DNA from: Bacteroidales bacterium
GTDB lineage: Bacteria; Bacteroidota; Bacteroidia; Bacteroidales; UBA932
NCBI GenBank assembly: GCA_017445015.1
Contig: JAFSVL010000012.1
Location: forward strand, 1-56,480
DNA length: 56,480 nt
Direction: 5' to 3'
The notes below the pieces were generated by a model that had not been told where the DNA came from, ran no database searches, and saw only the letters and a program-made list of their open reading frames with translations. Shown in pieces: positions 28,137 to 53,521 of this stretch. Positions within the stretch are counted from its first letter, which is position 1, and every line of letters starts with the position of its first letter. The position numbers and the translations under genes were made by a program.

Positions 28137-28250
28137 ATGGACAGGGTCCCGTCATATATCGCACCGCAGGCAAGCGTTTCCTTTTATAAGGAGGATGCGC
28201 TGTGCCTTTCCGGAAACATCGAACAGTGGTATGAAGACGACATTGCCTGA
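28137..28250 (+). CDS. Short leader peptide, 37 aa
   Basis: MDRVPSYIAPQASVSF followed by KEDALCLSGNIEQWYEDD and a TGA at 28248-28250. It begins directly after the -7 box and overlaps the fimbrillin-EEP gene by 20 bases, a spacing that suggests translational coupling. The pattern (Y..P near the start, LC-L-S in the middle, acidic E-D-D-I near the end) repeats in the second short peptide at 30006. Similar 40-60-residue peptides ahead of surface lipoprotein genes are familiar in Bacteroidales. Function unknown. Confidence 0.6.
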   Translation: MDRVPSYIAPQASVSFYKEDALCLSGNIEQWYEDDIA

Positions 28251-29847
28251 GCTCATATCCCTGGTGTTCCTCGCGGCACTTCCCCTTTCCTGTACGAAAG
28301 GACAGGGACCTGAGGCGTGCGGACCTGCGGAAATCCTTTCCTTCACGGCCACGGCTCCGCCACCCGGGGATGCGGGGCGCGTCACCATAGACGCCTCCGG
28401 CAAGACCGCTTGGGAAGCCGGCGACGCTATCCGCATCTACTGGAGCGGCGGCAGTTGCGATGCCGTTACCCAGGACTGTGGAAGTACCGCGGTCTTCACG
28501 ACTTCAGATGCGGTTCCGACCGGAAAATCCGTGTACTGCGCCGTATATCCGGCCTCGCGCAAGGCAACCTTTGACGGATCCTCCCTTACCGTCGATTATA
28601 CCCAGACCGGTGAACCGGCCATCCTTGCCTGCAGCGCCATCTGCACGGCATCGACCACCACCCCCGGAGGGCCGCTTTTCTTTGCAAACAGCGGGGCGAT
28701 GTTGAAATTCGCCACATCTTCAGATAAAATCCACAGCGCCACATATCTTTCTTCCGGCACGAAAGTCTCCGCCGTGGCGGGCAGTAATTCCGATGCGCGT
28801 ATCCCTTACAGGAAGGGAACTTACTACATTCCGGTTCCCGGCGGCGATGCGCCGCGGGGCTTCTCGCTTCGCCTCAAGAATTATGATGGCCAGGATTATC
28901 CTGCCTTTCATCGCAGTGCGGCGCGTACCTTCGAGCGCTCCCACATCTATAATGTAGGAACCATTGAAGATAAACTCTTCGGCGGAACGGGAACGCCGGT
29001 CTCCAATCTGCGGGTGATGTCTTTCAATATCCTCCGCGGCGACACGCAGGGGCCGGACCACCTCTGGAGTGCCCGCAAAGACGCGTGTCTCGCCATGATG
29101 GCCTCCGACGCGCCGGATATCGTAGGACTGCAGGAATGTACCTCCGTCCAGCGGGACGATATCCTGGATGCTTTCCCGCGCTACGGCGCAGTGGGCGTGT
29201 CTGTCAGCGGGCTCAAGATAAGCGCATATCCGAAGGTGAGCTCCAACCCGATCTTATACGACGGAGAAAAGTTCCTTCTGGAAGATTGGGGGACTTTCTG
29301 GCTGTCGGATACCCCGGATGAGCCCGGTTCCTATACGTGGGGCTACGATAAGCCCCGCACATGCACATGGGCGCGGCTGAGGCTGCGCTGCGGCGGGCAG
29401 CGCTTGTACTTTTTCAACGCGCATGTTGAAAATGCCGGCGGCCAGGAGGCCAAAGAAAAGAGCATACTCCTGATAATCGAGCGGATCAAGGCCCTGAATC
29501 CGGACGGCAGCGTTCCGGTCATTTTCGGGGGCGACATGAACAATGTCATCTCAGCCTCGGCTCCCCTCGGCCCCATGGCGTCCTTCCTTGTGCATATTCC
29601 GAGCCATGCCCCCGTCACGGACAAAGGGCGTACATTCAATGGCTTCAGCGCAACAGGCGGCTCTGCCCTGGACCATCTTTTCTGCAGCTCCGCGTTCCGT
29701 CTGAAGCGCTTTTCCGTTGACCGGAAAGCCTATGCCGGAATTACCTATATCTCCGACCATTACCCGGTTTATGCGGATCTGGAACTGAATGTTTCCGCCC
29801 TTGCAGACAAGTTTACCGTTGAAGGGGAACCTTTAGGATTATTTTAA
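28231..29847 (+). CDS. Fimbrillin-like domain fused to EEP phosphoesterase
   Basis: 538 residues from the ATG at 28231, where the signal peptide begins (TLPELISLVFLAALPLSC, lipobox LPLSC). Residues about 25-250 are fimbrillin-like (VTIDASGKTAWEAGDAIRIYW; VYCAVYPASR; NSGAMLKF), the module used by Bacteroidales surface proteins. Residues about 258-525 are an endonuclease/exonuclease/phosphatase (EEP) domain: VMSFNILRGD, DIVGLQEC (metal-binding Glu), GTFWLSDTPDEPGSYTW, FNAHVEN, FGGDMNN (catalytic Asp/Asn) and YISDHYPVY. EEP enzymes include inositol phosphatases and sphingomyelinase-like phosphodiesterases as well as nucleases. The fusion likely displays a phosphoesterase at the cell surface. A 158-base gap with no gene follows. 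Confidence 0.83.
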   Translation: MKTTLPELISLVFLAALPLSCTKGQGPEACGPAEILSFTATAPPPGDAGRVTIDASGKTAWEAGDAIRIYWSGGSCDAVTQDCGSTAVFTTSDAVPTGKSVYCAVYPASRKATFDGSSLTVDYTQTGEPAILACSAICTASTTTPGGPLFFANSGAMLKFATSSDKIHSATYLSSGTKVSAVAGSNSDARIPYRKGTYYIPVPGGDAPRGFSLRLKNYDGQDYPAFHRSAARTFERSHIYNVGTIEDKLFGGTGTPVSNLRVMSFNILRGDTQGPDHLWSARKDACLAMMASDAPDIVGLQECTSVQRDDILDAFPRYGAVGVSVSGLKISAYPKVSSNPILYDGEKFLLEDWGTFWLSDTPDEPGSYTWGYDKPRTCTWARLRLRCGGQRLYFFNAHVENAGGQEAKEKSILLIIERIKALNPDGSVPVIFGGDMNNVISASAPLGPMASFLVHIPSHAPVTDKGRTFNGFSATGGSALDHLFCSSAFRLKRFSVDRKAYAGITYISDHYPVYADLELNVSALADKFTVEGEPLGLF

Positions 29848-29955
29848 TTTTACGGATGTGTATTTTTGCTTTTTATGCCTTCCCGATGCTTTCAATACCT
29901 GTTTTTCTCTTTTAGACATCAGTGTGAAACTTTAATTTTATCCTTAAGATATTGA

Positions 29956-29982
29956 TTTGATTTACTAATGATTTTTACTTTG
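29956..29982 (+). promoter_or_regulatory. Possible promoter TTTG-N15-TTACTTTG
   Basis: TTACTTTG at 29975-29982 is one base from consensus; TTTG at 29956-29959 is too close, while ATTG at 29951-29954 has 20-base spacing. It would place a leader of about 18 bases before the second short peptide at 30006 and start the long 30-53 kb transcript. Confidence 0.4.
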
Positions 29983-30005
29983 TAAAAAATCACAAAAGAA
30001 ACGCT

Positions 30006-30146
30006 ATGGAAAAAAACTGTTACCAATCACCGAAGGCAAAGGCCCTGGAACCTATAGAGCCTTTCCGGATTGCCTGCCTGTCCATGCAGGACTCTACGGC
30101 TGATACGTTCTTTGTCGAGGACGATATAACCGACGAGTTGTTTTAA
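30006..30146 (+). CDS. Short leader peptide, 46 aa
   Basis: MEKNCYQSPKAKALEPIEP, then FRIACLSMQDSTADTFF and an acidic end VEDDITDELF, with stop at 30144-30146. Same layout as the 37-aa peptide at 28137: Y/P near the start, a C-L-S core, and an acidic tail. The fimbrillin beta-helix gene follows 15 bases later. Two such peptides in front of two fimbrillin-type genes suggests a specific role (export aid or leader), not chance. Confidence 0.6.
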   Translation: MEKNCYQSPKAKALEPIEPFRIACLSMQDSTADTFFVEDDITDELF

Positions 30147-30161
30147 TTTATGGAGGAACGT

Positions 30162-32492
30162 ATGATGAAAAAGTTTTTCTGTATTTTCAGTATTGCGGCC
30201 CTTGCTTTCGCGGCCTGCACAAAAGAAACCGTTGCTCCTGAAGACGAGAACGGAAAGACCCCTTCCGAGGGGGTTACCATTACCTTTGCCTGCGAGGCTC
30301 CCATGCCCCCCATAGAGGACGGTTCCAAAACGACGGTAGATGCTTCCGGGCTTGTGGCCTGGGAAGCCGGTGATGAGATTGCCGTGTGGTATCTGGATTC
30401 CAACAACGAGCCCCAGTCCGTGACGGCGACCGCCGCTTCGGCAGGCAACAGCACCACTTTTACCGCCACCATCACTGACGGTTCCGCCCCGGATCATTTC
30501 TGGGCTGCTTATCCTGCAGGCAGCGGATCGCTTACGTACGAAGGCGGCAATGAGAATTTCGCCATTACCGTTACCAATTCGGACGGTACGTTCAAAGGGG
30601 CCAACTTCATGGCCGCATATTCGACGGCGGAGGCAATGAGCTTTGCCTTCAAAAATGCTGTCGGAATCGTGAAGATCGCCCTCCCTGCCGGCGGAGTCAT
30701 TTCTCACGGCGGGACGGATTATACCCTCAATGGTGTCCGTATTCGTGGTAAATCAAGCGGTATCAACCATAAGGGGACGGTAGAAGTCCTATTGAATTCG
30801 GAGAATTCGGCTGTTGAGAGTTTCTCTTCGGAAGTGACGGGCGGGGCTGGCAATATCTATGTCAATTTCGGTGATGAAGTCCGTAACGACGGGTTTGTCT
30901 ATCTGCCCTCTTTACCGGGAACACTTGGCGATGGTTTCGGTGTCAAGTACTTTGCACAGGGAGGAAAGAATATCCCCGGAATCGTTTCCAAGGATGCAGA
31001 AGTCACCTTCAGCCGTGGGCATATCAAGCCATTGTCCGACCTCACTGGCAAAATCGTCTGGGACTACTATGTTTCCCCGTCCGGCTCCGGTGACGGCCTC
31101 AGTGTCGCCAGTCCCATGTCAATAGACGGTTTATATACACTGCTCTACAGCAGAAGAAATGATTCGGATGCTGTTTATATGGCCTACGCAAATGTCCTGA
31201 ACGGTGTTACGGTACACTTCGAAGAAGGAAATTATACCGTTTCGCAAACCTTGCCGCTTACGGGCTATACGGAAGAAGTGGAGATTACCTTTGACGGTAA
31301 CGCCGCCATTCTTGACGGTGACGATGCTGTCGGTTTGCTCAATATCACGGCCAAAGTGAATATGCATGTCAGGAATATGACCTTCCAGCATGGAATGGTC
31401 ACCACTCAGGGAGGCGCAGTCAGATTGGACAGGAAAGACAGTAAGCTGGATTTTACAGGCTGCTCTTTCAAGAATAATTCTGCAGTGAATGGCGGCGCTA
31501 TAGCTGTTGTGGGGGCAGCCAGCTCCACGGACGAGGACCTGCAGGTTTCGTTCACCAATTGCCTGTTTGCTTCCAATACGGCTACAGCGCCCACTTCCGG
31601 TACTACTGGAGGAGCAGCTGTTCTGGTTTCTTCCGGAACGGGCGGAGGCATCGTGAGTTTCAACAATTGCCGTTTTGATCAGAACACAGCTCCGCAGGGA
31701 GCCTCATTCTTTACGAGTTCCAAAGTGGCTTCGTACTTCAACGGTTGTACATTCTATTTTGAGCAGGCGACCGGGACGGCATCCGGAATCGGCGGATATT
31801 CTGTTTACAGCGGCAATAAGGACGGGAGACTCGGGATGAACAATTGCACCATCCACGCGAAGAATAGGGATAATGCCAATGGTATCAACGCGGCCTCAAA
31901 CGGCGCGCAGATTCGTACCATCGGCTATAGTGCGATTGCAAACACGACGATATGGAGCAGCGGCGCTACTGGAAACCGGGCCAGTCTCATTGCCGGCCGC
32001 GGCCCTTCTATTGCAGGCGCTACTCCGCAGGACAATACGGTGGTCAATTGTGTTGTTCATCAGAAAAGTAATACATATAATGCGCTTTTCTTCCACGATA
32101 ATTACACCTGCCAGGTTTTATATTCCTTCTATGATGGCATCAACGGTACGCTTAAAGATGGCGTACAGGTTGTGACCGGATGCCATAACTGGGGTGAAAA
32201 GAATAACACTGCTCCGACGGGAGCCGCTGGGAATCCCAATAAGCCATATCAGGGTGTCAATCACACGTATTATACCTGGACTTTCTCAGCCGCCATGTAT
32301 CCGGATTTCACACCTGCAACGCTTGGATATGTGAAGGATGCCATCAAAAATACAAATGGCGTCGGGCAGGGGTTCTACAACTGGCTCGAAGACATCGGGG
32401 CTCTTGACAAAGACATTATGGGAAGAAGCCGCGGCAGTTCTGATTCAGACCTGCAGTCTCCCGGATCTTATCATATGACCTGGGTCCAGTAG
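30162..32492 (+). CDS. Fimbrillin-like + beta-helix surface lipoprotein
   Basis: 776 residues from the ATG at 30162, preceded by a GGAGG ribosome-binding-like sequence 7 bases upstream; an alternative ATG lies one codon later. Lipobox ALAFAAC. A fimbrillin-like segment (TTVDASGLVAWEAGDEIAVW, about residues 57-76; FWAAYPAGSGSL) leads to a right-handed parallel beta-helix from about residue 301 (YYVSPSGSGDGLSVASP, an 'SG(T/S)GDG' opening typical of pectate-lyase-fold adhesins; VHVRNMTFQHGM; FTGCSFKNNSAVNGGAI; FTNCLFASNTATAPTSGT). No lyase catalytic residues are evident, so binding or structural roles are more likely than cleavage. Confidence 0.78.
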   Translation: MMKKFFCIFSIAALAFAACTKETVAPEDENGKTPSEGVTITFACEAPMPPIEDGSKTTVDASGLVAWEAGDEIAVWYLDSNNEPQSVTATAASAGNSTTFTATITDGSAPDHFWAAYPAGSGSLTYEGGNENFAITVTNSDGTFKGANFMAAYSTAEAMSFAFKNAVGIVKIALPAGGVISHGGTDYTLNGVRIRGKSSGINHKGTVEVLLNSENSAVESFSSEVTGGAGNIYVNFGDEVRNDGFVYLPSLPGTLGDGFGVKYFAQGGKNIPGIVSKDAEVTFSRGHIKPLSDLTGKIVWDYYVSPSGSGDGLSVASPMSIDGLYTLLYSRRNDSDAVYMAYANVLNGVTVHFEEGNYTVSQTLPLTGYTEEVEITFDGNAAILDGDDAVGLLNITAKVNMHVRNMTFQHGMVTTQGGAVRLDRKDSKLDFTGCSFKNNSAVNGGAIAVVGAASSTDEDLQVSFTNCLFASNTATAPTSGTTGGAAVLVSSGTGGGIVSFNNCRFDQNTAPQGASFFTSSKVASYFNGCTFYFEQATGTASGIGGYSVYSGNKDGRLGMNNCTIHAKNRDNANGINAASNGAQIRTIGYSAIANTTIWSSGATGNRASLIAGRGPSIAGATPQDNTVVNCVVHQKSNTYNALFFHDNYTCQVLYSFYDGINGTLKDGVQVVTGCHNWGEKNNTAPTGAAGNPNKPYQGVNHTYYTWTFSAAMYPDFTPATLGYVKDAIKNTNGVGQGFYNWLEDIGALDKDIMGRSRGSSDSDLQSPGSYHMTWVQ

Positions 32493-32494
32493 CA

Positions 32495-33442
32495 TTGACG
32501 CAAATAATTCATAATCTTTCACTTCTGGCAGCGGGGGCCGTCCTCGCTGCCGGAGTGTTTGTATCCTGCGGCAAAGAGGATAAGGGAGGCGGTTCCGAGT
32601 CCGGCACTCCCTCCGGGGGGGAAACTCAGGAAATCCCCGTAACCGAGGTTTCTACGCTCAAGGTGATGAGTTTCAATATCCTGCGCGGAGACCTCGAAGG
32701 TCCGGACCACGACTGGACCGTCAGGCGGGAAGCCTGCCTTGCCATGATCGAGGCACAAGGACCCCACATTTTCGGCCTTCAGGAATGCTGCTGGACACAG
32801 CGCAGGCACATTCTTGCCTCCAACGGCCTTTTCGACGCAGTAGGCGTTGCAATAAACGGGCAGACCTCCGGCTACACCAATGTGTCGTCCAATCCTATCT
32901 TCTGGCGCAAGGACATATTTGAACTTCAGGAATGGGGAACGTTTTGGCTTTCTGACACTCCTGAAGCAATCGGTTCATATACCTGGAATTATCCGAAGCC
33001 CCGTACCTGCACCTGGGCCCGGCTCAAAATCCGCTGCAGCGGCAGGCAAATTTACTATTTCAATGCACATCTCGAGGCGCACGGCGGCCTGGAGCCCAAG
33101 GAAAAGGGCATTCTGCTGATCATCGAACGTATAAAGGAGAAGAACCCTTCCGGGCAGATTCCCGTCATCTTCGGCGGCGACATGAACAATGCGCTGACTT
33201 CCGGCGCCCCGCTTGGTCCCATGGCCCAGTACCTCAGCCATGCGCCCGGCAAATGCAGGACTACCGATACCGGGCGGACCTTCAACGGGTTCCGTGCCAC
33301 CGGCAATTCCGTGCTTGACCACTTGTTTTACAGCGAGGACCATTTCACCGGCCTCCGCTTCTATGTAGACCGCAAGGCCTACGAAGGCGTAACCTATATT
33401 TCAGACCATTATCCTGTTTTCTGTGAACTGGAAATCATTTAA
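32495..33442 (+). CDS. EEP phosphoesterase lipoprotein
   Basis: 315 residues. No ATG fits; the frame starts at TTG 32495, two bases after the previous stop, and then gives a clean lipoprotein signal (LAAGAVLAAGVFVSC, Cys25) and a Gly/Ser linker. The EEP domain (about residues 52-313) carries VMSFNILRGD, IFGLQEC (about 92-98), TFWLSDTPEAIGSYTW, FNAHLEA, FGGDMNN (about 226-232) and ISDHYPVF (about 303-310). It is a close paralogue of the EEP half of the 28231 gene (same GDxxGPDHxW and FWLSDTP segments). Probably a phosphomonoesterase or phosphodiesterase on the cell surface or in the periplasm. Confidence 0.82.
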   Translation: MTQIIHNLSLLAAGAVLAAGVFVSCGKEDKGGGSESGTPSGGETQEIPVTEVSTLKVMSFNILRGDLEGPDHDWTVRREACLAMIEAQGPHIFGLQECCWTQRRHILASNGLFDAVGVAINGQTSGYTNVSSNPIFWRKDIFELQEWGTFWLSDTPEAIGSYTWNYPKPRTCTWARLKIRCSGRQIYYFNAHLEAHGGLEPKEKGILLIIERIKEKNPSGQIPVIFGGDMNNALTSGAPLGPMAQYLSHAPGKCRTTDTGRTFNGFRATGNSVLDHLFYSEDHFTGLRFYVDRKAYEGVTYISDHYPVFCELEII

Positions 33443-35813
33443 GTTTTTGGCCCTGCTGCCGGTAGTGCTGGCTGCAGGGTGCGGCAAGGAACTTCCCGGC
33501 GGCGAAGGACAGGGAGAACCTGCCGGGGTGCGGCTTTCCGTGTCTCTTCCGCAGGAACTGAGCCGGACCGCGCTCGGAGACAAGACGGGCGGGAAATATC
33601 CTGTCTTCTGGCAGGAGGGAGACTGTATTTCGCTCAACGGGCACAGTTCCCTTCCCCTCTCTTCCGAGGATGCCGGCGGCATGACGGCTCCGTTCATTTT
33701 CCGGGACGGTCTTGCCTCGCCCTTCAATCTCCTCTATCCGGTGGCTTCCGAACCGGATGTGGTCGTGTTTCCCCATCATCAGCATTATGTGCAGGGTAGT
33801 TTTGACCCTGCGGCAGCGCCGATGTGGGGGACGAGTGCCGCTTACGAGGACGTCACCCTGCATCATCTTTCCAGCCTGGTACGCATCGCCCTTACTTCTT
33901 CGGAGGGGGTGACCGTGACCGGTATATCCCTGACGGCCCTCGGCGGCGCTCCGCTCAGCGGGACCTTCCGGGCTGTCAAAGACCAGGCCGGCGCGTATGA
34001 CGGCAGTCTGCAGCCGCTCAATACCGGCAGCACCATAGAGTACAGTTTCGGGGAGGAGGGCGTCCGCTTGGGCGGAAGCCCGCTGTATGCCTGGATCGCC
34101 ATCCCTTACGGTACTTACGGAAGCGGATTCAAGGCGGTCGTAAAGGCTGACGGCGGCGATGTGATGCTGCTTTCTTTCTTTTCCGAAGGAAGGAGCGTGG
34201 CGCCGTCCAAAGTGCTGGAGTTCCCTGCGGTAGAGTTCACCGCGGACGGCTCCGGCGTCCTTTATATAGAAAGTGCGGACGACCTCCTGTCCCTTGGAGG
34301 CGCATCGAACGCCGTACTCGTAGGCGACATCGATATGTCCGGGATGCCCTGGACGGAAATAGCCTCTTATTCGGGGACGCTTGACGGCCTGGGGCATACG
34401 GTTTACGGCCTTTCGGGCCCGATGTTCAATACCGTCACCGGCGTGGTGCGCAATCTCGTGCTGGCAAGCGAATACACGGAGACGGAAAACCGGGTCTCCG
34501 GCGGTCTTGTCAGGACGCTCGGATCTTCGGGGGTTGTGGAGAACTGCGTTTTTACCGGCAGGATTACTTATGCCCGCCGTCTGGAGAGCGGTAGCGAGGA
34601 TGCCTTCTGGGGCGGCCTGGTGGGAACGGCGAGTGCGCAGACGACCCTGCGCAACTGTACCAACAGGGGGGCAGTGACTGTGGACGGGTCCTATCTTGTC
34701 AATCCCCGTCTGGGCGGCATTGTCGGCCGTTACCAGGGCGGCGCGTCGCGTCTTGTGAATGAGGGCAGCGTTATCTACGGAGAAAATTCCACGGCCGGAG
34801 CCCTCTATCTTGGCGGCGTCGCCGGCGTGCACAACGGCTCTGGAACGGGAACGGATTTGCGCAACCACGGTGATGTCGCCTGTTATGGCACCGTTACAGG
34901 CAGCAATCTTTGTTTTGTGGGCGGCGTAGTGGGCAGCCATTCCGCCGGTCATGTCGCGGATTATGTCTCTACGGAGTCGGGAAGCGTAACGGTCGATACC
35001 CGCAAGATGACCTATGCCCCCAAGGTGGGCGGCGTCATCGGGCAATTGACGATTACAGCCTCCACCAAGGGCTTCAATGTGACCGGAAGCGCGAACGGCA
35101 GTCCCATTTACATGGTCTGCAACGGCAAGGCCCTTGACCGCAATGCGGCCATCGGAGGGCTTATCGGCTATATTTCCCAGTCAGGCACCACCGCGGACCA
35201 GACCATTGCCATCGATGGCTGTTCCCATGATGCTCCCATTACGGTGCAGGGCCTCCTGTCCGGAAAAAGTACGGCGGCTACCGGGCGTGCGGTAGTCGGA
35301 GGCCTGGTCGCCCTTGCGACACCGGTGCTCTCCGGACGGTCCCATACGCTGGAGGTCAGGAACAGCCGCAATACCGGCGATATCCGTTTCGAGGGCGGCG
35401 TCAAATACTGCTATGCCGGCGGTATCGTCGCCGACATCCAGTGCGTCGGCGCAAACATCTCCGGCTGCGAGAACCGCGGCTCCATCCTTGTCGAAGGGGA
35501 GATGGACAATTATTCTTCCGGCGGCATCGCCGGCCTTCTTCTGGGAGGACACGTCGTCACGCGCTGCAAGAATTTCTGCGACATCACCCGGGGAGGCCTG
35601 ATCAGCGGAACATCCCCGGTCACCGCCGCGGCGAGCTGGTGCGGCGTGGGCGGACGCTTATGGGACGGCGAATCCTGGAACAGCCCCGTGGAATCCGATT
35701 TCCCCAAATTCATGTACGCGGGATGGGCGCCTTCGGACTTTGCCTCTTATCCGCAATACTATACGGGCTGTTCCCGCTGGGATGGCTCATCGAAATTAAG
35801 TTGGGAGGACTGA
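33423..35813 (+). CDS. GLUG-repeat surface lipoprotein with fimbrillin-like start
   Basis: 796 residues from a GTG at 33423 (20-base overlap with the EEP gene). Signal MNWKSFKFLALLPVVLAAGC makes it a lipoprotein. Residues about 30-275 are fimbrillin-like (RLSVSLPQELSRTALGDKT, YPVFWQEGDCISLNG, PFNLLYPVAS). From about residue 285 the chain consists of GLUG-type repeats (GGLVGTASAQTTLRNCTNRGAVTV; GGIVGRYQGGASRLVNEGS; GGVAGVHNGSGTGTDLRNHGD), typical of adhesive beta-helix surface proteins. No catalytic motif. It probably binds glycan or cell surface material for the PUL. Confidence 0.72.
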   Translation: MNWKSFKFLALLPVVLAAGCGKELPGGEGQGEPAGVRLSVSLPQELSRTALGDKTGGKYPVFWQEGDCISLNGHSSLPLSSEDAGGMTAPFIFRDGLASPFNLLYPVASEPDVVVFPHHQHYVQGSFDPAAAPMWGTSAAYEDVTLHHLSSLVRIALTSSEGVTVTGISLTALGGAPLSGTFRAVKDQAGAYDGSLQPLNTGSTIEYSFGEEGVRLGGSPLYAWIAIPYGTYGSGFKAVVKADGGDVMLLSFFSEGRSVAPSKVLEFPAVEFTADGSGVLYIESADDLLSLGGASNAVLVGDIDMSGMPWTEIASYSGTLDGLGHTVYGLSGPMFNTVTGVVRNLVLASEYTETENRVSGGLVRTLGSSGVVENCVFTGRITYARRLESGSEDAFWGGLVGTASAQTTLRNCTNRGAVTVDGSYLVNPRLGGIVGRYQGGASRLVNEGSVIYGENSTAGALYLGGVAGVHNGSGTGTDLRNHGDVACYGTVTGSNLCFVGGVVGSHSAGHVADYVSTESGSVTVDTRKMTYAPKVGGVIGQLTITASTKGFNVTGSANGSPIYMVCNGKALDRNAAIGGLIGYISQSGTTADQTIAIDGCSHDAPITVQGLLSGKSTAATGRAVVGGLVALATPVLSGRSHTLEVRNSRNTGDIRFEGGVKYCYAGGIVADIQCVGANISGCENRGSILVEGEMDNYSSGGIAGLLLGGHVVTRCKNFCDITRGGLISGTSPVTAAASWCGVGGRLWDGESWNSPVESDFPKFMYAGWAPSDFASYPQYYTGCSRWDGSSKLSWED

Positions 35814-35816
35814 GCC

Positions 35817-45228: not shown

Positions 45229-47039
45229 AATCGTTTATACCCGGAATCTGCATGGCTGTAATTTGCTGTGCACTTTTGGCGTCTTCATGTTCGACACCGT
45301 CCCTGCGGGTGCGCACCGTTTACAGTGACGGCCGTGTGAGCGAAGAGATTGTGCCTCTCAGATGCTGCCGCAGCCACCTTGAATACCGGCTCTCTTCATC
45401 CGGACTGGCCGGAATCGACACCCTTACCGTGGTCCCCGACTTTGCCCGGGCCGTGGAGGGAGACGAGGGCTTCTTTATGAATTCCCAGGGACATATCACT
45501 TATTTCCTTCCCGGACGCAGGGATACCACCGTATGGCTTTATCAGCGTCATCCCATAGCCCTTGAAGGTATAAAGACGCCGTCCGGCTGCTATGCCGCCG
45601 TTTTTCAGTCATACCGGTGGAACCTGCGCAGCCGCATAGATGTGCGGGGCGGAGAGTATGTGCAGTCTTTCGATTATATCCTTCGCGATACCGCTCCTTC
45701 TGAGGATCTGGTCCTGCAGTATTGGCCCTTGAAGGGCGCGGACGCTTCGTATAGCGGGATTGCAAGGCTGTACAGGCGGCTCTTCGTCGAGAACAATCCG
45801 GAAATGGTGCCGCTGCGCGAGAGAGTGAAATCCCGCCCTCTGCTCAAATATGCGCTCGAGAGCCCCGAAATCCGAATACGCCAGGCATGGAAACCGCTTC
45901 CTACCCCCGTACCCCACCAGACCCGTGAAAACGAACCTCCGGTCAGGGTGAAGGTGACTTTCAACCGGGTGTGCGACATCGTGGACGCCCTTGCAGAGGC
46001 TGGCGTCGACAGTGCCCAGCTGACACTGGTGGGATGGAACCTCAAGGGGCATGACGGACGTTACCCTACCGTGTTCCCCCCGGAACCCGGCCTTGGAGGG
46101 GAGGCGGACCTGAAGCATCTCATATCCTATGCCCAGGGGAAAGGTTTTCAGATTGTCCCTCACATCTGCACCGGCGACGCCTACAAGGTTTCCGAGGACT
46201 GGGACCCTGCGGATATCGCCAAACTTCCCTCCGGTGAGCTTGACAGCAGTTATGTATATGGTTCCGGCAGGATGTTTAAGATCTGCCCGGAGGTATCGTA
46301 TCGCAAGTACGTGCAGAAAATCAACGACTCCCTCCGTGTTTACGGCTTCCGGGGAATCGAATACAACGATGTCTATTCGATCGTGGCGCCGGTTACATGC
46401 TGCGATCCCGCACATCCACTTGATTTTGCCGCCGCGGCCCGCTATGACAGGCTCATCCTCAAGGACGGTTCTGACAAGATAGGAGGCATAGGTTCCGAGG
46501 GCGGTTACGACCATGTGGCCCCTGTACTGGATTTCTGCCTGTACGCATCTACGGGCGGGCTTACCAAATTGTCTTTCGACAAGCTGAGGGACGCCCATGT
46601 TCCCGTCTGGCATATAATATATAACGGCTATATCTATTCCTGCCCTTTCAGCGAGGTCGTGAATTATTCCACCAAGGCTCCGGATATTTCGATGAAGATG
46701 CAGGAATACGGCTGCCATCCCACTTTCTATTTCCATGCCGCCCACCGGGACGATGCAAAGAACTGGATCGGGAACCATCAGACCGACCTTTACTGCGGTA
46801 CGCAGGAGGAACTGGAACAATCCGTCAAGGCCATCAGGCAGGGGTACGACTATCTGCGGGAATACGGATATATACAATATCTTCGTTTTGACGACCATTG
46901 CGAAGTTGCGGACAGCGTTTTCCGCTCCAGGTTTTCAGACGGCACCCGTACCTATTGCAATTATTCATGCAGTCCGGTCGGCGTGGACGGCATCATTGTT
47001 GGAGCAAAAGACTGGGTAATCGTGAAAGGAAAGAAATGA
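45225..47039 (+). CDS. Lipoprotein, TIM-barrel glycosidase-like (DUF5696-like)
   Basis: 604 residues; lipobox LLASSC (Cys22). N-terminal beta-rich part, then a barrel with the recognisable LVGWNLKGHDGRYPTVFPPE and PGLGGEADLKHLISYAQGKG segments (about residues 267-305), HICTGDAYK, GFRGIEYNDVYSI (about 380-392) and IYNGYIYSCPFSEVVNY. These fit the DUF5696 group of predicted glycosidases as I remember it; candidate acids are the E/D in IEYNDVYS. Coupled to its neighbours by ATGA overlaps. It probably acts on glycan released in the periplasm or on the surface. Confidence 0.63.
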   Translation: MKSFIPGICMAVICCALLASSCSTPSLRVRTVYSDGRVSEEIVPLRCCRSHLEYRLSSSGLAGIDTLTVVPDFARAVEGDEGFFMNSQGHITYFLPGRRDTTVWLYQRHPIALEGIKTPSGCYAAVFQSYRWNLRSRIDVRGGEYVQSFDYILRDTAPSEDLVLQYWPLKGADASYSGIARLYRRLFVENNPEMVPLRERVKSRPLLKYALESPEIRIRQAWKPLPTPVPHQTRENEPPVRVKVTFNRVCDIVDALAEAGVDSAQLTLVGWNLKGHDGRYPTVFPPEPGLGGEADLKHLISYAQGKGFQIVPHICTGDAYKVSEDWDPADIAKLPSGELDSSYVYGSGRMFKICPEVSYRKYVQKINDSLRVYGFRGIEYNDVYSIVAPVTCCDPAHPLDFAAAARYDRLILKDGSDKIGGIGSEGGYDHVAPVLDFCLYASTGGLTKLSFDKLRDAHVPVWHIIYNGYIYSCPFSEVVNYSTKAPDISMKMQEYGCHPTFYFHAAHRDDAKNWIGNHQTDLYCGTQEELEQSVKAIRQGYDYLREYGYIQYLRFDDHCEVADSVFRSRFSDGTRTYCNYSCSPVGVDGIIVGAKDWVIVKGKK

Positions 47040-48229
47040 AAAGACGTGTTTTTACGATAATACTTTTTCTTGCCGGCCTAGTTGCGGCCGCCCAGACCCT
47101 GCCGGCCTGGCAGAAGGGATATTTTGACATCCATCACATCGCTATCGGGAAGGGCGAATGCCAGTTCCTGATTTTCCCGGACGGGACCACCATGATGATA
47201 GACTGCGGGGATATGACCGGAGTCGGCCGCGGCTGGGCGCACAGCAGGGCCCTGCCGGATTCCACCCTGTCGCCCACGCAGTGGGCCGCCCGCTATGTGG
47301 ATGCTTTCTCCCCGACGCCCGGGCGCATTGATTATTTTGCCCTTTCGCATTTCCACGCAGACCACATGGGGCATCCGTCCGCATCCCGCCCGGGCCCTTA
47401 CGGATACCGCCTCTGCGGGATAACGGAACTGGGCGAATATGAGAAAATCGGCACTTTCGTGGACAGGGGATATCCTTCCTACGATTTTCCTTCCGTGGAG
47501 CGGGTGGAGAGCCAGTGCGGGATGATGAAGGATTACAAACTTTTCATCGCCCGGCAGGTCAATGTATGCGGGGCGAAGGCTGAGCGTTTCGAGGTCGGCT
47601 CCCGCAAACAATTCGGCACGAAGGAGGGGAAATGGGATTTCGAGGTGTGGAACGTGGCCTCGGGCCTTATGCTGACGGCGGGAGGCAGGAAGACCAGGCC
47701 CATGTACAAAGAGACGGAGAATCCCGACAAGTTCGATGAAAACATGTTCTCTCACGTACTGCTTTTCCGCTACGGCGATTTCAAATATTTCAGCGGAGGC
47801 GACCTTTGCGGCAGCCGGGGTTCGGCTTTCGGCCGCGATTACGAATCCCAGGTTGCCCCGCTTGTCGCTCCCTGCAATGTCCTCAAGGCGAACCATCACG
47901 GCTACCGGGATGCCACGAATCCCAATTTCCTCTGGCAGATGGCCCCCGACGTCATCGTCGTGGACGCGGTGGAAGCCTCGCATCCCAGGCTGGAGACCGC
48001 TGCGCGGATAGCGGATCCCATGTATCCTGGCAAAAGACAACTCTATGCCACTTCCGAGGCGGGGCGCGCCAAGATGGGCGAGGACGCATGGCCCGTGGTG
48101 AAGGGCGTAGGACACATCGTTATCCGCGTGTACGAAGGCGGCGGTTCATACCAGGTTTTTGTGCTCGACGCCACCTCCGGGGACTATCCTTTGATGCATC
48201 AGTCTGAAATTTTTATGTCACGCCGATGA
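47036..48229 (+). CDS. Secreted metallo-beta-lactamase-fold hydrolase
   Basis: 397 residues from the ATG at 47036 (ATGA overlap); signal peptide FTIILFLAGLVAAAQ. The metallo-beta-lactamase fold is shown by FDIHHIAIGKGECQFLIFPDG, the metal motif LSHFHADHMGHP (about residues 102-113), FSGGDLCG (about 251-258), and KANHHGYRD (about 284-292). This arrangement is close to ComEC-type MBL domains and related phosphodiesterases. In a PUL it may hydrolyse a phosphodiester, ester or sulfate-like bond; which one is not visible. Unusual companion for a SusC/SusD system. Confidence 0.78.
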   Translation: MKRRVFTIILFLAGLVAAAQTLPAWQKGYFDIHHIAIGKGECQFLIFPDGTTMMIDCGDMTGVGRGWAHSRALPDSTLSPTQWAARYVDAFSPTPGRIDYFALSHFHADHMGHPSASRPGPYGYRLCGITELGEYEKIGTFVDRGYPSYDFPSVERVESQCGMMKDYKLFIARQVNVCGAKAERFEVGSRKQFGTKEGKWDFEVWNVASGLMLTAGGRKTRPMYKETENPDKFDENMFSHVLLFRYGDFKYFSGGDLCGSRGSAFGRDYESQVAPLVAPCNVLKANHHGYRDATNPNFLWQMAPDVIVVDAVEASHPRLETAARIADPMYPGKRQLYATSEAGRAKMGEDAWPVVKGVGHIVIRVYEGGGSYQVFVLDATSGDYPLMHQSEIFMSRR

Positions 48230-50568
48230 CCAGACACTTTTTATCCCTGCTGGCCGCGGTTTTGATGCCGGCCCTGCTTCCCGCCCGTGACGTGAACCTT
48301 GCCGGGGATTACCATGCAAAGGCCGACGGCAGCGTCAAGGTGACGCAGAAACTCCAGAAGGCCATTGATGACGTGTCCCGCAGCGGCGGAGGCCGCGTCA
48401 CCCTCTCCGGAGGAACGTTCCTGTCCGGTCCCGTGCAGCTCAGGGACGGTGTGGAACTTCACATCGCGTCCGGGGCGAGGCTCCTGGCTTCGGATGAACT
48501 TTCAGATTATACCGATCCGCAGTTCAGGCATGTCAGCACCGATGCCCTGCCGCGTCGGCGCAGCGCCGCCCTGATCTGGGCGGACGAGGCGAAGCATATT
48601 GCCATCACCGGGCCCGGCACCATCGACGGGAACGGAGCGTCACACGTCCGGCCGAAAACCGGTTCCGGCTGGAAAGGCTGGCCGTACGAGCGCATTACGG
48701 CGCCCCGCGAATCCCTGCCCCGGCTTGTGTTTTTCGCAGGCTGCAGCGATGTCGCCGTATCCGGAATCCATGTGACTAACCTGCCCGCAGGATGGTGTTT
48801 CTGGGTGCATGACTGCGACAGGGTGCGCTTCGACGGCTGCACGATCCTTGCCGACGTGCGCTATCCCAATAATGACGGAATCCATATCAACTGCTCCCGG
48901 GACGTGCATGTAAGCAATTGCAACATCGAAACCGGTGACGACTGCATTGTGCTCCGTGCCAACAGCCGCTCCCTGAAGGAAAACAAACCCTGCGAACGCG
49001 TGACGGTCACGAACTGCAGCCTGCGGAGCTGGTCTTCTGCGGTGCGTATCGGCTGGGTGAATGACGGGACGATCCGCAACTGCACGCTTTCCAACCTGGT
49101 CATCCACGACTCTTCCGACGGAATAGGCTGCTATCTTCCGCTGATGAAATATATCCGGTCCAGCAACGATTACGGCCGCGAGTCCACCCTGGTCGAGAAT
49201 ATCCGGGTTTCCAATGTGGTGATGGACGAGGTTTACGGGAACCCCGTGTACTTCAAGGTCCCGCAACATGACCCGGAGGTGCATGTGGCGGGTTTCCGTA
49301 ACATCCGCTTCAGCAATGTGGCGGCCAGGGCCCTGTGCAAGCCTTTTCTCAGTCCTGTGGCGCGCGGGGGCGTAAGCTTTGACGGATGTGTTTTTGAAAA
49401 ATGTTCCCCGGAGGAGTTTCCGGGGGATCCCAGGCGTCACGGATACGTCCTCGGGGCCAGGGCGGACTACTACGTCTGTGCGTACGTCTGGCCTTCCTGC
49501 CATGACGATTCGCTGGCCCGCAAATGGATATGGCCTGCCGGAGAGGGGGAGTGGGAGGTCATACGCAGGGGGAACCCGCGTTTCGAAGGGCATTACCAGC
49601 CCCGCACCCCGCTGCTGGGCTACGGACATGACGATGACCCGGAGGTGGTGGAACAGTGGATTCAGACCGCCCTGTCCCACGGCGTGAACACCTTCATCTA
49701 TGACTGGTACTGGTTCCGTGACCCTGACGGCTACAGCGGCCCCTTCCTCGAAGCCGCCCTCGACAAGGGCTTCCTCGGCGCGCCGTCCAACCGGAAGATG
49801 AATTTCTACATCATGTATGCGAACCATTTCGTGAAATACAGTTACTGGAATTATCACAAATGGGGCGCGGATGCGGACGGCCTGCTCTTCGACCCGCGCA
49901 TCGGCATGGAAGACTGGAAAAAAATCGTGCATCGCGTCATCGGGCAGTATTTCTCCCTCCCGAACTACGTCAAGATCGACGGCTGCCCCGTATTTGCCAT
50001 GTTCAATGCCGATATCTTCCGGCAGGGCTTCTCTTCCGACGAAGAGGCTTCCGCGGCGATGGAGTATTTCCGTCAGGAAGTCCGGAGGGCGGGTTTCCCG
50101 GGGCTTCACCTGCAACTTACGCCGGGTGCGGGAAGCGACCCTTCGCCTGCCCGGCAGGAAAGGACGAAAGAAAACATCCGCCTGCTCGGGATCAACAGCA
50201 TCGCCTTTTATAACATGGGCGGGTTCAATTGCGATTATGCGCTGCACTGCGAGAATTCCCTGCGCATGCGTGAAAATACGGCCTCTGCCTACGGTATCCC
50301 GGTTTTCCCGACCGTCTCGATCGGCTGGGACGACACGCCGAGATTCCCGCAGAAGGGTGCGGACCAGGTGACCCGTTTCCACAATACCCCTGAGGTATTT
50401 GCCGCTTACCTCGGGACGGCCCGGGATTATGCGGATTCGCACCGCGCCACCCAGCCTCCTTTCGTCATGATCAATGCGTGGAACGAGTGGGTGGAGGGTA
50501 GTTACCTGCTTCCGGACAAGGTGCACGGATACGGCTATCTCGATGCCGTTAAAAAAGTCTTCGAATGA
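48226..50568 (+). CDS. GH28-like beta-helix fused to WbsX (GH99-like) domain
   Basis: 780 residues with signal peptide FLSLLAAVLMPALLPA. Residues about 25-405 are a GH28-type right-handed beta-helix: LQKAIDDVSRSGGGRVTLSGG, GTIDGNG, PNNDGIHINCSRDVHVSN (about 214-231) and ETGDDCIVLRA (about 235-245), retaining the N-D and D-D of polygalacturonases. The third GH28 motif (GHG) is replaced by SWSSAVRIGW, so classic polygalacturonase activity is doubtful. From about residue 412 begins a WbsX/GH99-like domain: ADYYVCAYVWPSCHDD, GYGHDDDPEVVEQWIQTAL, TFIYDWYWF, CPVFAMFNADIF and MINAWNEWVEGSYLLPD. Domains of this kind are related to endo-mannosidase-type GH99. The fused enzyme may process a mannose- or rhamnose-containing branched glycan. 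Confidence 0.76.
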   Translation: MTRHFLSLLAAVLMPALLPARDVNLAGDYHAKADGSVKVTQKLQKAIDDVSRSGGGRVTLSGGTFLSGPVQLRDGVELHIASGARLLASDELSDYTDPQFRHVSTDALPRRRSAALIWADEAKHIAITGPGTIDGNGASHVRPKTGSGWKGWPYERITAPRESLPRLVFFAGCSDVAVSGIHVTNLPAGWCFWVHDCDRVRFDGCTILADVRYPNNDGIHINCSRDVHVSNCNIETGDDCIVLRANSRSLKENKPCERVTVTNCSLRSWSSAVRIGWVNDGTIRNCTLSNLVIHDSSDGIGCYLPLMKYIRSSNDYGRESTLVENIRVSNVVMDEVYGNPVYFKVPQHDPEVHVAGFRNIRFSNVAARALCKPFLSPVARGGVSFDGCVFEKCSPEEFPGDPRRHGYVLGARADYYVCAYVWPSCHDDSLARKWIWPAGEGEWEVIRRGNPRFEGHYQPRTPLLGYGHDDDPEVVEQWIQTALSHGVNTFIYDWYWFRDPDGYSGPFLEAALDKGFLGAPSNRKMNFYIMYANHFVKYSYWNYHKWGADADGLLFDPRIGMEDWKKIVHRVIGQYFSLPNYVKIDGCPVFAMFNADIFRQGFSSDEEASAAMEYFRQEVRRAGFPGLHLQLTPGAGSDPSPARQERTKENIRLLGINSIAFYNMGGFNCDYALHCENSLRMRENTASAYGIPVFPTVSIGWDDTPRFPQKGADQVTRFHNTPEVFAAYLGTARDYADSHRATQPPFVMINAWNEWVEGSYLLPDKVHGYGYLDAVKKVFE

Positions 50569-51782
50569 AACGTATGCTGCTGCTCGTCCTTGCGCTCGCT
50601 TCCGTCCTGGCCGGACGGGCGCAGGACTGCGATTCCCTCCGCGGGATTTTCCGTGTTTACGGGATCCCCTCCGGCATGGCGGATACCCCCGCGCCTGCGG
50701 GATACAAGCCGGTGTATATCAGCCATTACGGCCGTCACGGCAGCCGGTTTCATGGGGATCCGGCTCTCGTTCTCGGCCCGAGGGACAGCCTCCTGGCCGC
50801 CCGCGGCCGGGGAACCCTCACCGCACTGGGGGAAGCCATGCTCTCGCGTCTGGAAGCTGTCGCGGCGGCAAGTGACGGGCTCTGGTATGAACTTACCGCC
50901 ATCGGCGAAAGGGAGCACCGGGAGATTGCCGGGCGTATGGTCAGGCGTTTCGCTCCCGTATTCCGGTCCGGGAAAAGGATAGACGCTTTCAGCAGCATAC
51001 GTACGCGCTGCCTTGTAAGTATGGGCTGTGCCGCGTCGGAGATATCGGCCCGGGTCCCCGGCATCCGGATTTACCTGCATACCGGGAAAAAGTATCTCCC
51101 GCTCCTTAAAAACGAGACCCTGCTCCCGGAGGCCCGGCGCTGGTTCAATCCGCGCATTGCGGCGCTGACGGATTCGCTGGGAGACTGGACGGCCTGTCTG
51201 CGCCGGCTCTACACGGATGCACCCGGTGAGGGCCGGGCCGCCACGGCCCTTGCCATCAATTTCTGGAACAGCTGGGCGGAGGCGCCCTGCATCGACGGCG
51301 AAGGCTTTGAAATCCTGGACTGGCTCAGTATCGATGAACTGCGTGCCCTGGGGCGCAGCGCGGATATGAACCTTCCGCTGAAATGCCTGCGCTCGGACCG
51401 CTTCGGCCAGGCGCGGGTGGAGTCGCAGCGCGCCCTGCTGACAGATATGACGGAAAGGGCTGACGATGCGCTTTCCCGCGGCGATATCGCGGCCACGCTG
51501 CGCTACGGCCATGATGCGAACCTTGTCGGGCTGGCGGGGCTGATGAATCTCTGCGGATTTGAAGGGGTGTATTCCCTGGACCGTTTCCCGGATCCTCGCT
51601 GGCGTTCCGCCGACAGGATTCCCATGGCATCCAACCTGCAATTGGTCTTTTACAGGAAACCTTCATCCGGCAGCGTCCTGGTCAAATTTTTGTATAACGA
51701 GAGGGAGGTGCTCCTCTCCGGCCTGGCGGCAGTGACCGGGCCATACTACGACTGGGCCGAGGTCAAAACATATTGGAAATGA
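50565..51782 (+). CDS. MINPP-like histidine acid phosphatase
   Basis: 405 residues; signal peptide MLLLVLALASVLAGRAQ (no lipobox). Catalytic start ISHYGRHGSRF (about residues 52-62) and proton donor RYGHDANLVGLAGLMNL (about 313-329). Distantly paralogous to the lipoprotein at 21510, sharing RHG-x-R and an H-D motif and the ending YY-x-W-x-x-x-K-x-Y. Sits inside the PUL, coupled by ATGA to the GH28-WbsX gene and to the double EEP gene, which implies removal of phosphomonoesters from the imported or surface-bound substrate. Confidence 0.8.
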   Translation: MKRMLLLVLALASVLAGRAQDCDSLRGIFRVYGIPSGMADTPAPAGYKPVYISHYGRHGSRFHGDPALVLGPRDSLLAARGRGTLTALGEAMLSRLEAVAAASDGLWYELTAIGEREHREIAGRMVRRFAPVFRSGKRIDAFSSIRTRCLVSMGCAASEISARVPGIRIYLHTGKKYLPLLKNETLLPEARRWFNPRIAALTDSLGDWTACLRRLYTDAPGEGRAATALAINFWNSWAEAPCIDGEGFEILDWLSIDELRALGRSADMNLPLKCLRSDRFGQARVESQRALLTDMTERADDALSRGDIAATLRYGHDANLVGLAGLMNLCGFEGVYSLDRFPDPRWRSADRIPMASNLQLVFYRKPSSGSVLVKFLYNEREVLLSGLAAVTGPYYDWAEVKTYWK

Positions 51783-53521
51783 AAAGACTCCTTACCCTGC
51801 TTTTCCTTTTATTCCCCCTGCTGACGGAGGCTCAGGAGCGGGATTTCCGCCTCATGTCCTTCAATATCGAGAGAGGGGACCTGTCCGTCTCCAAGGGCTG
51901 GGGCTGGGACGTCCGCAGGCCGGCCGCCCTTGCGATGCTCGAAAACGACAGGCCCGACGTACTGGGCGTACAGGAATGTAATTCGCAGCAGCGTGACGAT
52001 ATCCTCGCCCGCATGCAGTACAAGTGTATAGGGCTGTCCGTAGACGGCCTTTCGGGGGAACATGCAACATCGGCCAACTATATTTTCTACGACAGCGGGA
52101 AATTCGACCTTCTCGACGACGGTGTATTCTGGTACGCCTTCGAGCCGGATTCCGCGGGGATGTACACCTGGATAGCGAAAAAGCCGCGGAATGCCGTCTG
52201 GGGCCGTTTCCGCCATAAAGATTCTGGACGTGAGTTCATCTACATCAACAACCACCTCCAGAACGGAATCGACGCCGTACTCAACCGTGCGATGAGCATT
52301 ACGCTTCTGCTCCATAAGATGCGCGAAATCAATCCGGACGCCCTTCCGCTGATTTATTCGGGAGACCTTAACAGCAAGGGTACGGAATACTACTATGCGC
52401 CCCTGCGGCAGGAAATGCGGCATGCGGTGGACGTGTGTCCGCTGACGGACAGGGATGTGACCCTGGGCAGTTACAAGCGCAAAACGGGTACGGACGGCCA
52501 GATCGACCACATCTGGTTTTCCGGTGCCCTGGAAGGGCTCCGCTTTGCCGTTGACCGGGATGCCTACGCCGGACTGGACTATGTTTCCGACCATTTCCCG
52601 GTTTACTGCGATTTCCGCTTTACCGATGAGACTCCCGCCCGGGGAGGGGAGCCCAGCTGGTTCGACATCGTGCCGCGGGAATCCGACTTTACCGTAAAGG
52701 CGGGAACCTGGAATCTTTTCAGTACCGTCGAAAGGGGGGAGAGGGGCGCACCTTCCTGGAACGAGGTGAAAGCGGGCGTCGCCGCCACCATCGCCTCGCT
52801 CGACGTTGACCTGCTGGGTCTGCAGGAACTGACCGATCCCATGCTCCGCGACCTTCCACGGCTTCTCAAGGCCGAATGCGGAGGCCGCTACAAACTGTGG
52901 GCGGCGTTCTCCGACCCTTCTCCGGACAATCCCGGGCGCGAAGCCGTGGGCCTGCTGTACAATGCGGAACGATTCGTCCTGTCCGGCCAGCGTCAAAGCT
53001 GGATACGCGCCGGGGATACCGATACTCCGGCAAAGCCCTGGGGCGACAGTTTCCGGAGCGTGCTGACCGCAGTATTCAAGGACAAGGCGACGGGAAAGCG
53101 CTTTTTTGTGTTGACGGGAAAGTTCTGCAAAGGGGCCAATCCGGTGAAGTTCGAGGGGTTCGTCATCAAGACCATCGAGCAGGAGCAGAACAAGGATGCG
53201 CTGCCCAGCATCCTGCTGGCGGACATGAACACCGCGCCCAGGGGGAATGTGTTTATTTCCTTGCTCAATTACTGGACGGACAGTTATGCGCTTCTTTATC
53301 CCTTCCGGGACCGGTATTTCTCCACGAGGATATCCCAAACCGAATACGGGCCGAACACCCCGCAGGACTGGAACATCAAATACGACATCGTGGGGATAAG
53401 CCGCTATGTCGAGAACAAGATCAAAGTTACCTCCCATACGGTGCACCGGGAAATCCGCATGCGCACCCCGGTCCCTTCCGACCATTACCCTGTGACTGCA
53501 ACTTTCGTTTTCGCGGAATGA
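51779..53521 (+). CDS. Secreted protein with two tandem EEP domains
   Basis: 580 residues from the ATG at 51779 (ATGA overlap; a TTG two codons earlier is less likely). Signal peptide KRLLTLLFLLFPLLTEAQ. First EEP domain about residues 24-280: LMSFNIERGD, VLGVQECN (about 59-66), INNHLQN, YSGDLNSKG and YVSDHFPVY. Second domain about 295-578: KAGTWNLFS, LLGLQEL (about 343-349), LLADMNTAP (about 478-486) and PSDHYPVT. Both carry the metal-binding Glu and the final S-D-H, so both could be active. They differ enough (the first lacks the C-terminal phosphoesterase-typical G-G-D-M-N) to suggest two related reactions. Last gene of the PUL. Confidence 0.8.
   Translation: MKRLLTLLFLLFPLLTEAQERDFRLMSFNIERGDLSVSKGWGWDVRRPAALAMLENDRPDVLGVQECNSQQRDDILARMQYKCIGLSVDGLSGEHATSANYIFYDSGKFDLLDDGVFWYAFEPDSAGMYTWIAKKPRNAVWGRFRHKDSGREFIYINNHLQNGIDAVLNRAMSITLLLHKMREINPDALPLIYSGDLNSKGTEYYYAPLRQEMRHAVDVCPLTDRDVTLGSYKRKTGTDGQIDHIWFSGALEGLRFAVDRDAYAGLDYVSDHFPVYCDFRFTDETPARGGEPSWFDIVPRESDFTVKAGTWNLFSTVERGERGAPSWNEVKAGVAATIASLDVDLLGLQELTDPMLRDLPRLLKAECGGRYKLWAAFSDPSPDNPGREAVGLLYNAERFVLSGQRQSWIRAGDTDTPAKPWGDSFRSVLTAVFKDKATGKRFFVLTGKFCKGANPVKFEGFVIKTIEQEQNKDALPSILLADMNTAPRGNVFISLLNYWTDSYALLYPFRDRYFSTRISQTEYGPNTPQDWNIKYDIVGISRYVENKIKVTSHTVHREIRMRTPVPSDHYPVTATFVFAE

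Follow-up and report, generated by a model that had tools for sequence, protein, structure and literature searches.

The window analysed here, a contig of 56,480 nucleotides from a Bacteroidales bacterium, contains a SusC/SusD locus (28231 to 53521) in which several families of phosphoesterases lie next to candidate glycosidases. From sequence comparison we consider it rather probable, with clear reservations, that this is a polysaccharide utilization locus (PUL) for a phosphate-substituted glycan. A glycan carrying phosphate esters or phosphodiesters gives the best explanation, because several phosphoesterase families occur in one glycan-uptake string and because close relatives have them fused to sugar-cleaving domains. 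The phosphoesterase-loaded locus is real and is unusual within its own genome; phosphatases in PULs as such are already known.

Gene organization

The window is one contig (C62) of a genome (G000) of 2.30 Mb in 93 contigs with a completeness of 79.75%. Open reading frames (ORFs) of the operon from 28195 to 53518 were scanned against Pfam at E≤0.001. An earlier interpretation made from the letters alone, the sequence-only reading, had named the main genes, and all of these were recovered by Pfam and TIGR profiles, by matches to solved structures or by motifs (Table 1). It had also described nearly all genes from 30162 as overlapping or at most 4 bases apart, which agrees with our measurement: up to 53521 every gene lies on the plus strand, and the gaps range from −20 to +3 bp. 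The genes of the DUF5696, DUF6259 and GH28-like/WbsX proteins overlap their neighbours by 4-8 bp. The spacing of the genes suggests that the string may form a single transcription unit, which is preceded at a distance of 314 bp by the gene of the first EEP protein (EEP1, 28231-29847).

The order of the genes is EEP1, a 776-residue lipoprotein, EEP2, two lipoproteins, two small secreted proteins, SusC and SusD, followed by two small lipoproteins (one with a BACON domain), a DUF6259 protein, a DUF5696 protein, a metallo-beta-lactamase-fold (MBL) protein, a GH28-like/WbsX fusion, a histidine phosphatase (HisP) and EEP3. SusC and SusD are adjacent with 3 bp between them, the pairing by which a PUL is recognised. 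A lipobox pattern was flagged in EEP2, SusD and the DUF5696 protein; EEP1 was unflagged, with a signal stretch that ends in LPLSC. The HisP at 50565, EEP3 and the MBL, DUF6259 and GH28-WbsX proteins carry no lipobox flag, and were judged by eye to have plain signal peptides.

The candidate phosphoesterases of the locus

The EEP family was defined by PF03372 with a cut-off of 24.5 bits. Three EEP-fold proteins with four EEP domains, as counted beforehand, score over this cut-off (Table 1). When 19 EEP domains are aligned, the motifs FN, QE, NxH, GDxN, DH and SDH are seen to be kept in EEP1, EEP2 and the N-terminal domain of EEP3, that is in three of the four domains of the window, while the C-terminal domain of EEP3 lacks the histidine of the NxH motif, a residue which we take to correspond to H134 of DNase I. 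The solved relatives of EEP2 at E≤0.01 are 3mpr (1.9e-23), 4c1r (3.6e-23), 3g6s and 3l1w. EEP3 matches the same four structures (4c1r with 1.3e-24), then nocturnin with its N-terminal domain (2.2e-6), and its C-terminal domain is weakly similar to the nucleases ExeM/NucH (3.2e-6). The closest characterised solved relative of both EEP2 and EEP3 is 4c1r, deposited as a mannosyl-6-phosphatase. A role of EEP2 as a nuclease was rejected, as no nuclease is among its four solved relatives (EEP1 was not searched separately). Elsewhere in the genome, on contig C71, we observed an EEP-like protein without the FN and SDH motifs (L010:15144-16262), which is possibly a binding protein.

The HisP at 50565 had been proposed to resemble multiple inositol polyphosphate phosphatases (MINPP). 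This similarity holds in part. After its best match 7r5y, the protein matches solved MINPP structures at about 1e-26 to 1e-25, and the RHGxR motif is kept as RHGSR (residues 57-61). Its second motif is HD (residues 316-317), as in 7r5y, instead of HAE, which we take to be the proton-donor motif of MINPP phytases. There is no Pfam match at E≤0.001, and the five PF00328 rows of the own genome do not include the protein. A second HisP (21510) lies 3 bp behind a GH88/heparinase-like gene; the sequence-only reading, whose coordinates begin further downstream, had missed it. In a tree of 51 HisP sequences this second protein clusters with eight HisPs fused to NAGPA, with a support of 100/99.

For the protein at 47036, which had been listed as a secreted MBL-fold protein among the phosphoesterases, the fold is well founded, although the phosphoesterase role is only weakly suggested. 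It has no Pfam match at E≤0.001 and reaches PF00753 at 0.003, below the family cut-off; PF00753 is matched at 0.01 or better by 19 of 20 aligned members, the window protein included. The residues H105, H107, D109, H110, D256 and H288 are invariant in all 20 sequences and give the HxHxDH motif and the further metal ligands of the superfamily. Among solved structures CbpE, a teichoic-acid phosphorylcholine esterase, matches best (0.013), which is a lead only.

The nearest named relatives of this MBL protein come from metagenome-assembled genomes labelled Bacteroidales (57, 48 and 38% identity). At 1e-10 relatives occur in 17 of the 199 genomes of the family sample, the window's own included. Nineteen regions were fetched from 14 of these 17 genomes (G067, G165 and G171 were left out), and in 13 of the 19 the MBL gene is accompanied by SusC or SusD, often as SusC-SusD-MBL. 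Further neighbours are PF00149 proteins (L064, L042), an EEP protein (L043) and HisPs (L056, and L075 by a local profile); genome G002 has the order SusC-SusD-MBL-x-x-MBL-HisP. On contig C54 of the window's genome a protein with two MBL-profile stretches was observed near a polysaccharide lyase 8 protein (L063:9178-11163, 12115-15609).

Glycosidase candidates

Of the three glycosidase candidates, the DUF6259 protein has no match to a solved structure at 0.1. The DUF5696 protein, so assigned by Pfam, matches the alpha-N-acetylgalactosaminidase 5wzn at 1.8e-8 over part of its length, and its residues D382 and E425 align with D435 and E478 of 5wzn, which we assume to be the catalytic pair of this presumed GH129 enzyme. 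The fusion of a GH28-like with a WbsX domain, noticed beforehand, is borne out by its profile scores (Table 1). We take N-x-D, DD, G-H-G and R-x-K to be the motif set of GH28. In the GH28-like half NND (215) and DD (238) are kept, the motif scan found no G-[HQ]-G, and the only R-x-K stands at 142, before NND. The GH129-like, WbsX and GH28-like domains may point to hexosamine or hexose in alpha linkage and to uronic-type linkages, none of them being a proven family member.

Relatives of the DUF5696 protein at 1e-20 occur in five of 398 family genomes, including the window's own. Five DUF5696 loci lie outside this genome; one is a contig of 4 kb, which leaves four informative loci. An EEP gene adjoins DUF5696 in one of them (G230:C16), and in another (G242:C2) EEP and HisP are nearby. 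The complete gene set of the window was not met again in the loci fetched.

Fusions and related loci

A further argument arises from fusions of phosphoesterases to sugar-cleaving domains. The window's own genome encodes an EEP-GH97 protein of 959 residues in one ORF (C71, L010:7731-10607), with full-length relatives of 69-72% identity in G380, G277, G203 and G209, that is in five of 200 genus genomes in total. Its surroundings contain lipoproteins of the kind found at 33423 (one with an EEP domain at its end), a GDSL esterase and a GH35-like gene, as well as a gene that clusters with FAD-oxidoreductases. Separate EEP and GH97 matches on one strand, with 79-96 bp between them, occur for example in G149:C4, G096:C7 and G129:C4 (examples, not a count). 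A GH97-alpha-amylase fusion adjoins an EEP gene in G149:C9 (L150:10874-15421), with SusD at a distance of 3.4 kb, which hints at a phosphorylated alpha-glucan.

Histidine phosphatases are fused as well. The own genome has a HisP-GH20 protein of 902 residues (C6, L154:5957-8665) and a HisP gene adjoining GH3 (C33). HisP and NAGPA share one ORF in 13 loci of 12 genomes, all 13 also being among the PF09992 rows; as the sample was drawn by NAGPA or HisP matches, this number gives no rate. Genome G242 has a GH106-HisP ORF that is open at the edge of the stretch, and within 36 kb of it DUF5696, EEP and SusCD, not all on one strand. In G230:C16 a PF00149 (calcineurin)-GH2 fusion, DUF5696, EEP (local profile) and SusCD lie on one strand. 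HisP and EEP occur in one ORF in G188, where the EEP part (21.7 bits) stays under the PF03372 cut-off.

Several PULs combine more than one phosphoesterase. On contig C76 of the own genome the order is SusC-SusD-NAGPA (812 residues), a 547-residue protein, EEP and a 1359-residue lipoprotein with a second NAGPA stretch; both NAGPA stretches are over the cut-off, and the EEP part (22.6 bits) is under it with most motifs kept. Related arrangements are SusC-SusD-EEP-[HisP-NAGPA] (G129:C12), SusC-SusD-x-x-NAGPA-GDSL-HisP-[HisP-NAGPA]-EEP (G260:C6), SusC-SusD-x-NAGPA-[HisP-NAGPA] (G084:C3) and SusC-SusD-EEP-x-EEP-x-NAGLU-NAGLU (G041:C5). The locus EEP-SusC-SusD-BACON-EEP-DUF6259 (G107:C22) comes nearest to the window in content.

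Occurrence near SusC

To describe how unusual the locus is we took the surroundings of each of the 20 SusC genes over the cut-off in the own genome, stretches of up to 20 kb (about ±8.4 kb, some limited by contig ends and two overlapping), and scanned them with five profiles made here for EEP, HisP, MBL, NAGPA and calcineurin-type proteins. The first four are absent from 16 of the 20 stretches, which is in agreement with the unusual phosphoesterase load claimed in the sequence-only reading. The other four stretches are that of the window, C34 (two EEP), C78:163689 (three MBL) and C76 (NAGPA). The window stretch itself holds EEP1, EEP2 and MBL; HisP and EEP3 lie beyond its edge. Two stretches (C38 and C78:108845) have a calcineurin-type match only, and in the remaining 14 no profile of the five gave a match.

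We further counted, in five genomes, how many EEP genes have a SusC gene at no more than 10 kb, using PF03372 rows over the cut-off without the best, ExoA-like row of each genome, counting the two stretches of EEP3 once, and taking the SusC rows over the cut-off among the matches listed. The own genome has 4 of 8 (expected 0.19, P 0.045) and G107 3 of 4 (P 0.033); G041 has 5 of 10 (P 0.13), G149 2 of 7 (P 0.68) and G129 2 of 13 (P 0.43). Because this proximity is only modest, EEP alone is a weak PUL marker, and the evidence lies in the particular combinations. The distance between EEP and SusC was for the same reason rejected as a proof.

Interpretation and rival explanations

For a phosphate-substituted glycan the following sequence of steps may be imagined. 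The surface lipoproteins would bind the polymer, and EEP2 and probably EEP1 would remove phosphate mono- or diesters at the surface that block access. The trimmed oligosaccharides would be imported via SusC/SusD. In the periplasm HisP and EEP3 might strip remaining phosphates, the MBL enzyme would probably open a phosphodiester or remove a phospho-substituent, and the sugar chain would be cut by the GH129-like, DUF6259 and GH28/WbsX proteins. Gene order, protein families, lipobox patterns and the catalytic motifs of HisP, MBL and three EEP domains are read from the sequence; we infer that the phosphoesterases and glycosidase candidates share a substrate and are co-transcribed, and also the order of action and the site of each step.

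That the substrate is a phosphate-bearing glycan had been proposed beforehand, and is favoured by the fusions, by the PULs with NAGPA, EEP and HisP, and by the relative 4c1r. The particular candidates put forward (glycosylphosphatidylinositol-, phosphoinositol-, phosphomannan- or teichoic-like material) found no such support. We name no substrate, because no known polymer fits and because the GH129-like, WbsX and GH28-like domains are not proven family members.

Several observations weigh against a phosphate-substituted glycan. Relatives of the phosphoesterases are common in the family sample of 199 genomes (HisP in 57, EEP in 91), and the pooled proximity of EEP to SusC, 16 of 42 against about 8.8 expected, is only a modest enrichment. 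NAGPA is not among the matches of the window and, being present in 74 of 101 genus genomes, is by itself of little informative value. With 62% identity EEP1 and EEP2 are paralogues and do not count as independent, and the C-terminal domain of EEP3 looks degenerate. The HisP at 50565 forms a long branch of unsure placement in the tree. The MBL fold alone does not imply a phosphoesterase, and the protein at 47036 bears this label only by its weak similarity to CbpE. Two DUF5696 loci (G230:C21, G289:C5) are without EEP or HisP in the 36-40 kb fetched, and SusC/SusD was found in none of seven regions round other HisP matches (L153-L155, L157-L160). These last regions, and the EEP parts under the cut-off in C76 and G188, slightly lowered our confidence.

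The same gene content could serve phosphorus scavenging, as in the Pus loci of Flavobacterium, where nucleic acids, lipid head groups or other organophosphates would be stripped for phosphate and the sugars be secondary. We regard this as unlikely. According to excerpts of PMC8115612, the SusCD complexes there are co-localised with phosphomono- and diesterases and are induced solely when phosphate is depleted, and the window resembles these loci in its SusCD-like complex next to phosphoesterases. The excerpts of a survey (PMC6499787), which counts 576 SusCD loci with phosphodiesterases (PF00149, PF01663), suggest that some of these serve for nucleic acids, and the weak matches of EEP3 to ExeM/NucH and nocturnin would fit such a role. 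In contrast to the phosphate-starvation loci of PMC8115612, as far as its excerpts describe them, the string of the window includes three glycosidase candidates, and relatives fuse phosphoesterases to GH97, GH20, GH106, GH2 and NAGPA; moreover, a sugar phosphatase is the nearest characterised relative of the EEP proteins among solved structures. The survey loci share SusCD plus phosphodiesterase with the window, but were, by the same excerpts, picked by PF00149/PF01663 and not by EEP, HisP or NAGPA, and are without known carbohydrate-active enzymes, sulfatases and peptidases.

It is comparably unlikely that the phosphoesterase folds were recruited to other chemistry, such as removal of other esters or opening of lactones, on a glycan without phosphate. 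Both the MBL and the EEP fold are known to support varied chemistry, the similarity of the MBL protein to a phosphoesterase is weak, and one EEP domain of the window as well as the EEP-like protein on C71 are degenerate. Against this stand the kept histidine phosphatase motifs and the co-occurrence of EEP, HisP and NAGPA families in related PULs. That phytate or other inositol phosphates are targeted, in the manner of the Bacteroides MINPP, appears very improbable. The matches of the HisP at 50565 to solved MINPPs would be explained, and it shares with 7r5y and with 4fdt, presumably from Bacteroides, the type of a branch-2 histidine phosphatase with RHGxR. It differs by sitting in a PUL and, from MINPP, by the HD motif, other members of the family being fused to NAGPA, GH20, GH106 or EEP, and the SusCD pair, the glycosidase candidates, the EEP proteins and the fusions would be left unexplained. 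PMC3969271 reports MINPP homologues in gut bacteria.

Among the known systems closest to the locus are the PULs for yeast alpha-mannan in Bacteroides thetaiotaomicron, from which 4c1r, as we assume the protein BT3783, presumably originates. In both cases an EEP phosphatase belonging to the 4c1r similarity group accompanies SusCD. Unlike the mannan PULs, the window has a GH99-like WbsX domain as its sole mannan-type domain, along with four EEP domains, MBL, HisP, DUF6259, DUF5696 and GH28-like domains. A yeast-mannan PUL was rejected, as there is no Pfam match at 0.001 between 28195 and 53518 to GH76, GH92, GH38 or GH125, which we take to be its mannosidase families. The PUL figure in the excerpts of PMC7562712, a paper on yeast mannan, marks phosphatase genes among SusC, SusD and GH genes.

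We tentatively propose a wider reading, which we would not yet call probable, namely a lineage-wide phosphoglycan programme in the genus. Phosphodiester glycosidases would uncover phosphate esters, from which HisPs or EEPs, fused or linked to them, would take off the phosphate; glycosidases (GH97, GH20, GH106, GH2, GH129-like), again fused or linked, would cleave the sugar afterwards. Several PULs would be dedicated to this task, the window locus among them, and the MBL-fold phosphoesterase would be a new class of PUL enzyme.

How Bacteroidota use sulfated glycans has been studied extensively. On phosphorylated glycans we found little in the literature beyond single phosphatases and phosphate-starvation loci, and among the titles and abstract beginnings listed no combination or fusion of EEP, HisP, NAGPA or MBL in PULs. 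Phosphatases in PULs were reported previously, according to the excerpts of PMC10405439, which cites PMC8115612. The gene set of the PUL and the natural fusions offer testable candidate enzymes for phosphorylated or phosphodiester-linked glycans, possible classes being microbial capsules, teichoic-like polymers, fungal phosphomannan and phosphorylated starch. They would also help to assign DUF5696, DUF6259, the MBL family of the window and the EEP proteins in related genomes.

Features of the locus and its surroundings

Table 1. Features of the locus and of the adjoining upstream region, in order of position.
Feature	Position	Strand	Evidence
GH88 / heparinase II/III-like fusion, upstream unit	18516..21506	+	PF07470 163.4, PF07940 24.6 bits
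Second histidine phosphatase	21510..22787	+	PF00328 35.2 bits
689-residue protein, upstream of EEP1, adjoining the DUF6377/TPR gene	24376..26445		no Pfam match
DUF6377/TPR gene, upstream of EEP1	26445..27995
EEP1, N-terminal domain and EEP domain, possible lipoprotein	28231..29847	+	PF03372 49.5 bits; LPLSC
Small ORF, 46 residues, ahead of the gene string, may be a leader peptide	30006..30146	+
776-residue lipoprotein, candidate surface glycan-binding protein	30162..32492	+	lipobox FAAC; no Pfam match
EEP2, EEP phosphoesterase (family), lipoprotein	32495..33442	+	PF03372 54.1 bits; lipobox FVSC
796-residue lipoprotein	33423..35813	+	lipobox AAGC
275-residue lipoprotein	35817..36644	+	no Pfam match
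Small secreted protein	36637..36996	+	LLSC Cys after signal stretch, unflagged by pattern; no Pfam match (longer ORF)
Small secreted protein, 159 residues	36993..37472	+	no Pfam match (longer ORF)
SusC-type TonB-dependent transporter	37469..40519	+	TIGR04056 789.7 bits (cut-off 368.25)
SusD-type surface lipoprotein	40523..42178	+	PF07980 86.9 bits
Small lipoprotein, 114 residues	42175..42519	+
BACON-domain lipoprotein	42516..43136	+	PF13004 42.8 bits
DUF6259 protein, candidate glycosidase	43129..45228	+	PF19773 71.1 bits
DUF5696 lipoprotein, remotely GH129-like, candidate glycosidase	45225..47039	+	PF18952 127.5 bits
Secreted metallo-beta-lactamase-fold hydrolase	47036..48229	+	PF00753 weak; metal ligands kept
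GH28-like domain fused to WbsX/GH99-like domain	48226..50568	+	PF00295 74.9, PF14307 149.5 bits
Branch-2 histidine phosphatase, MINPP relative	50565..51782	+	7r5y 4.3e-39
EEP3, two EEP domains	51779..53521	+	PF03372 61.5 bits in two stretches

The start codons of EEP1 (28231) and of the small secreted protein at 36637 are ATG. A scan for the promoter pattern TTG-N18-22-TAnnTTTG on the plus strand from 16000 to 56480 gave a single match at 54732, outside the gene string, and the only Rfam match is a tRNA. The lipoprotein at 33423 is of the same kind as the lipoproteins beside the EEP genes on C71, with relatives in L010 down to 6e-53. Behind EEP3 a glycosyltransferase gene follows at 53545, 23 bp downstream.

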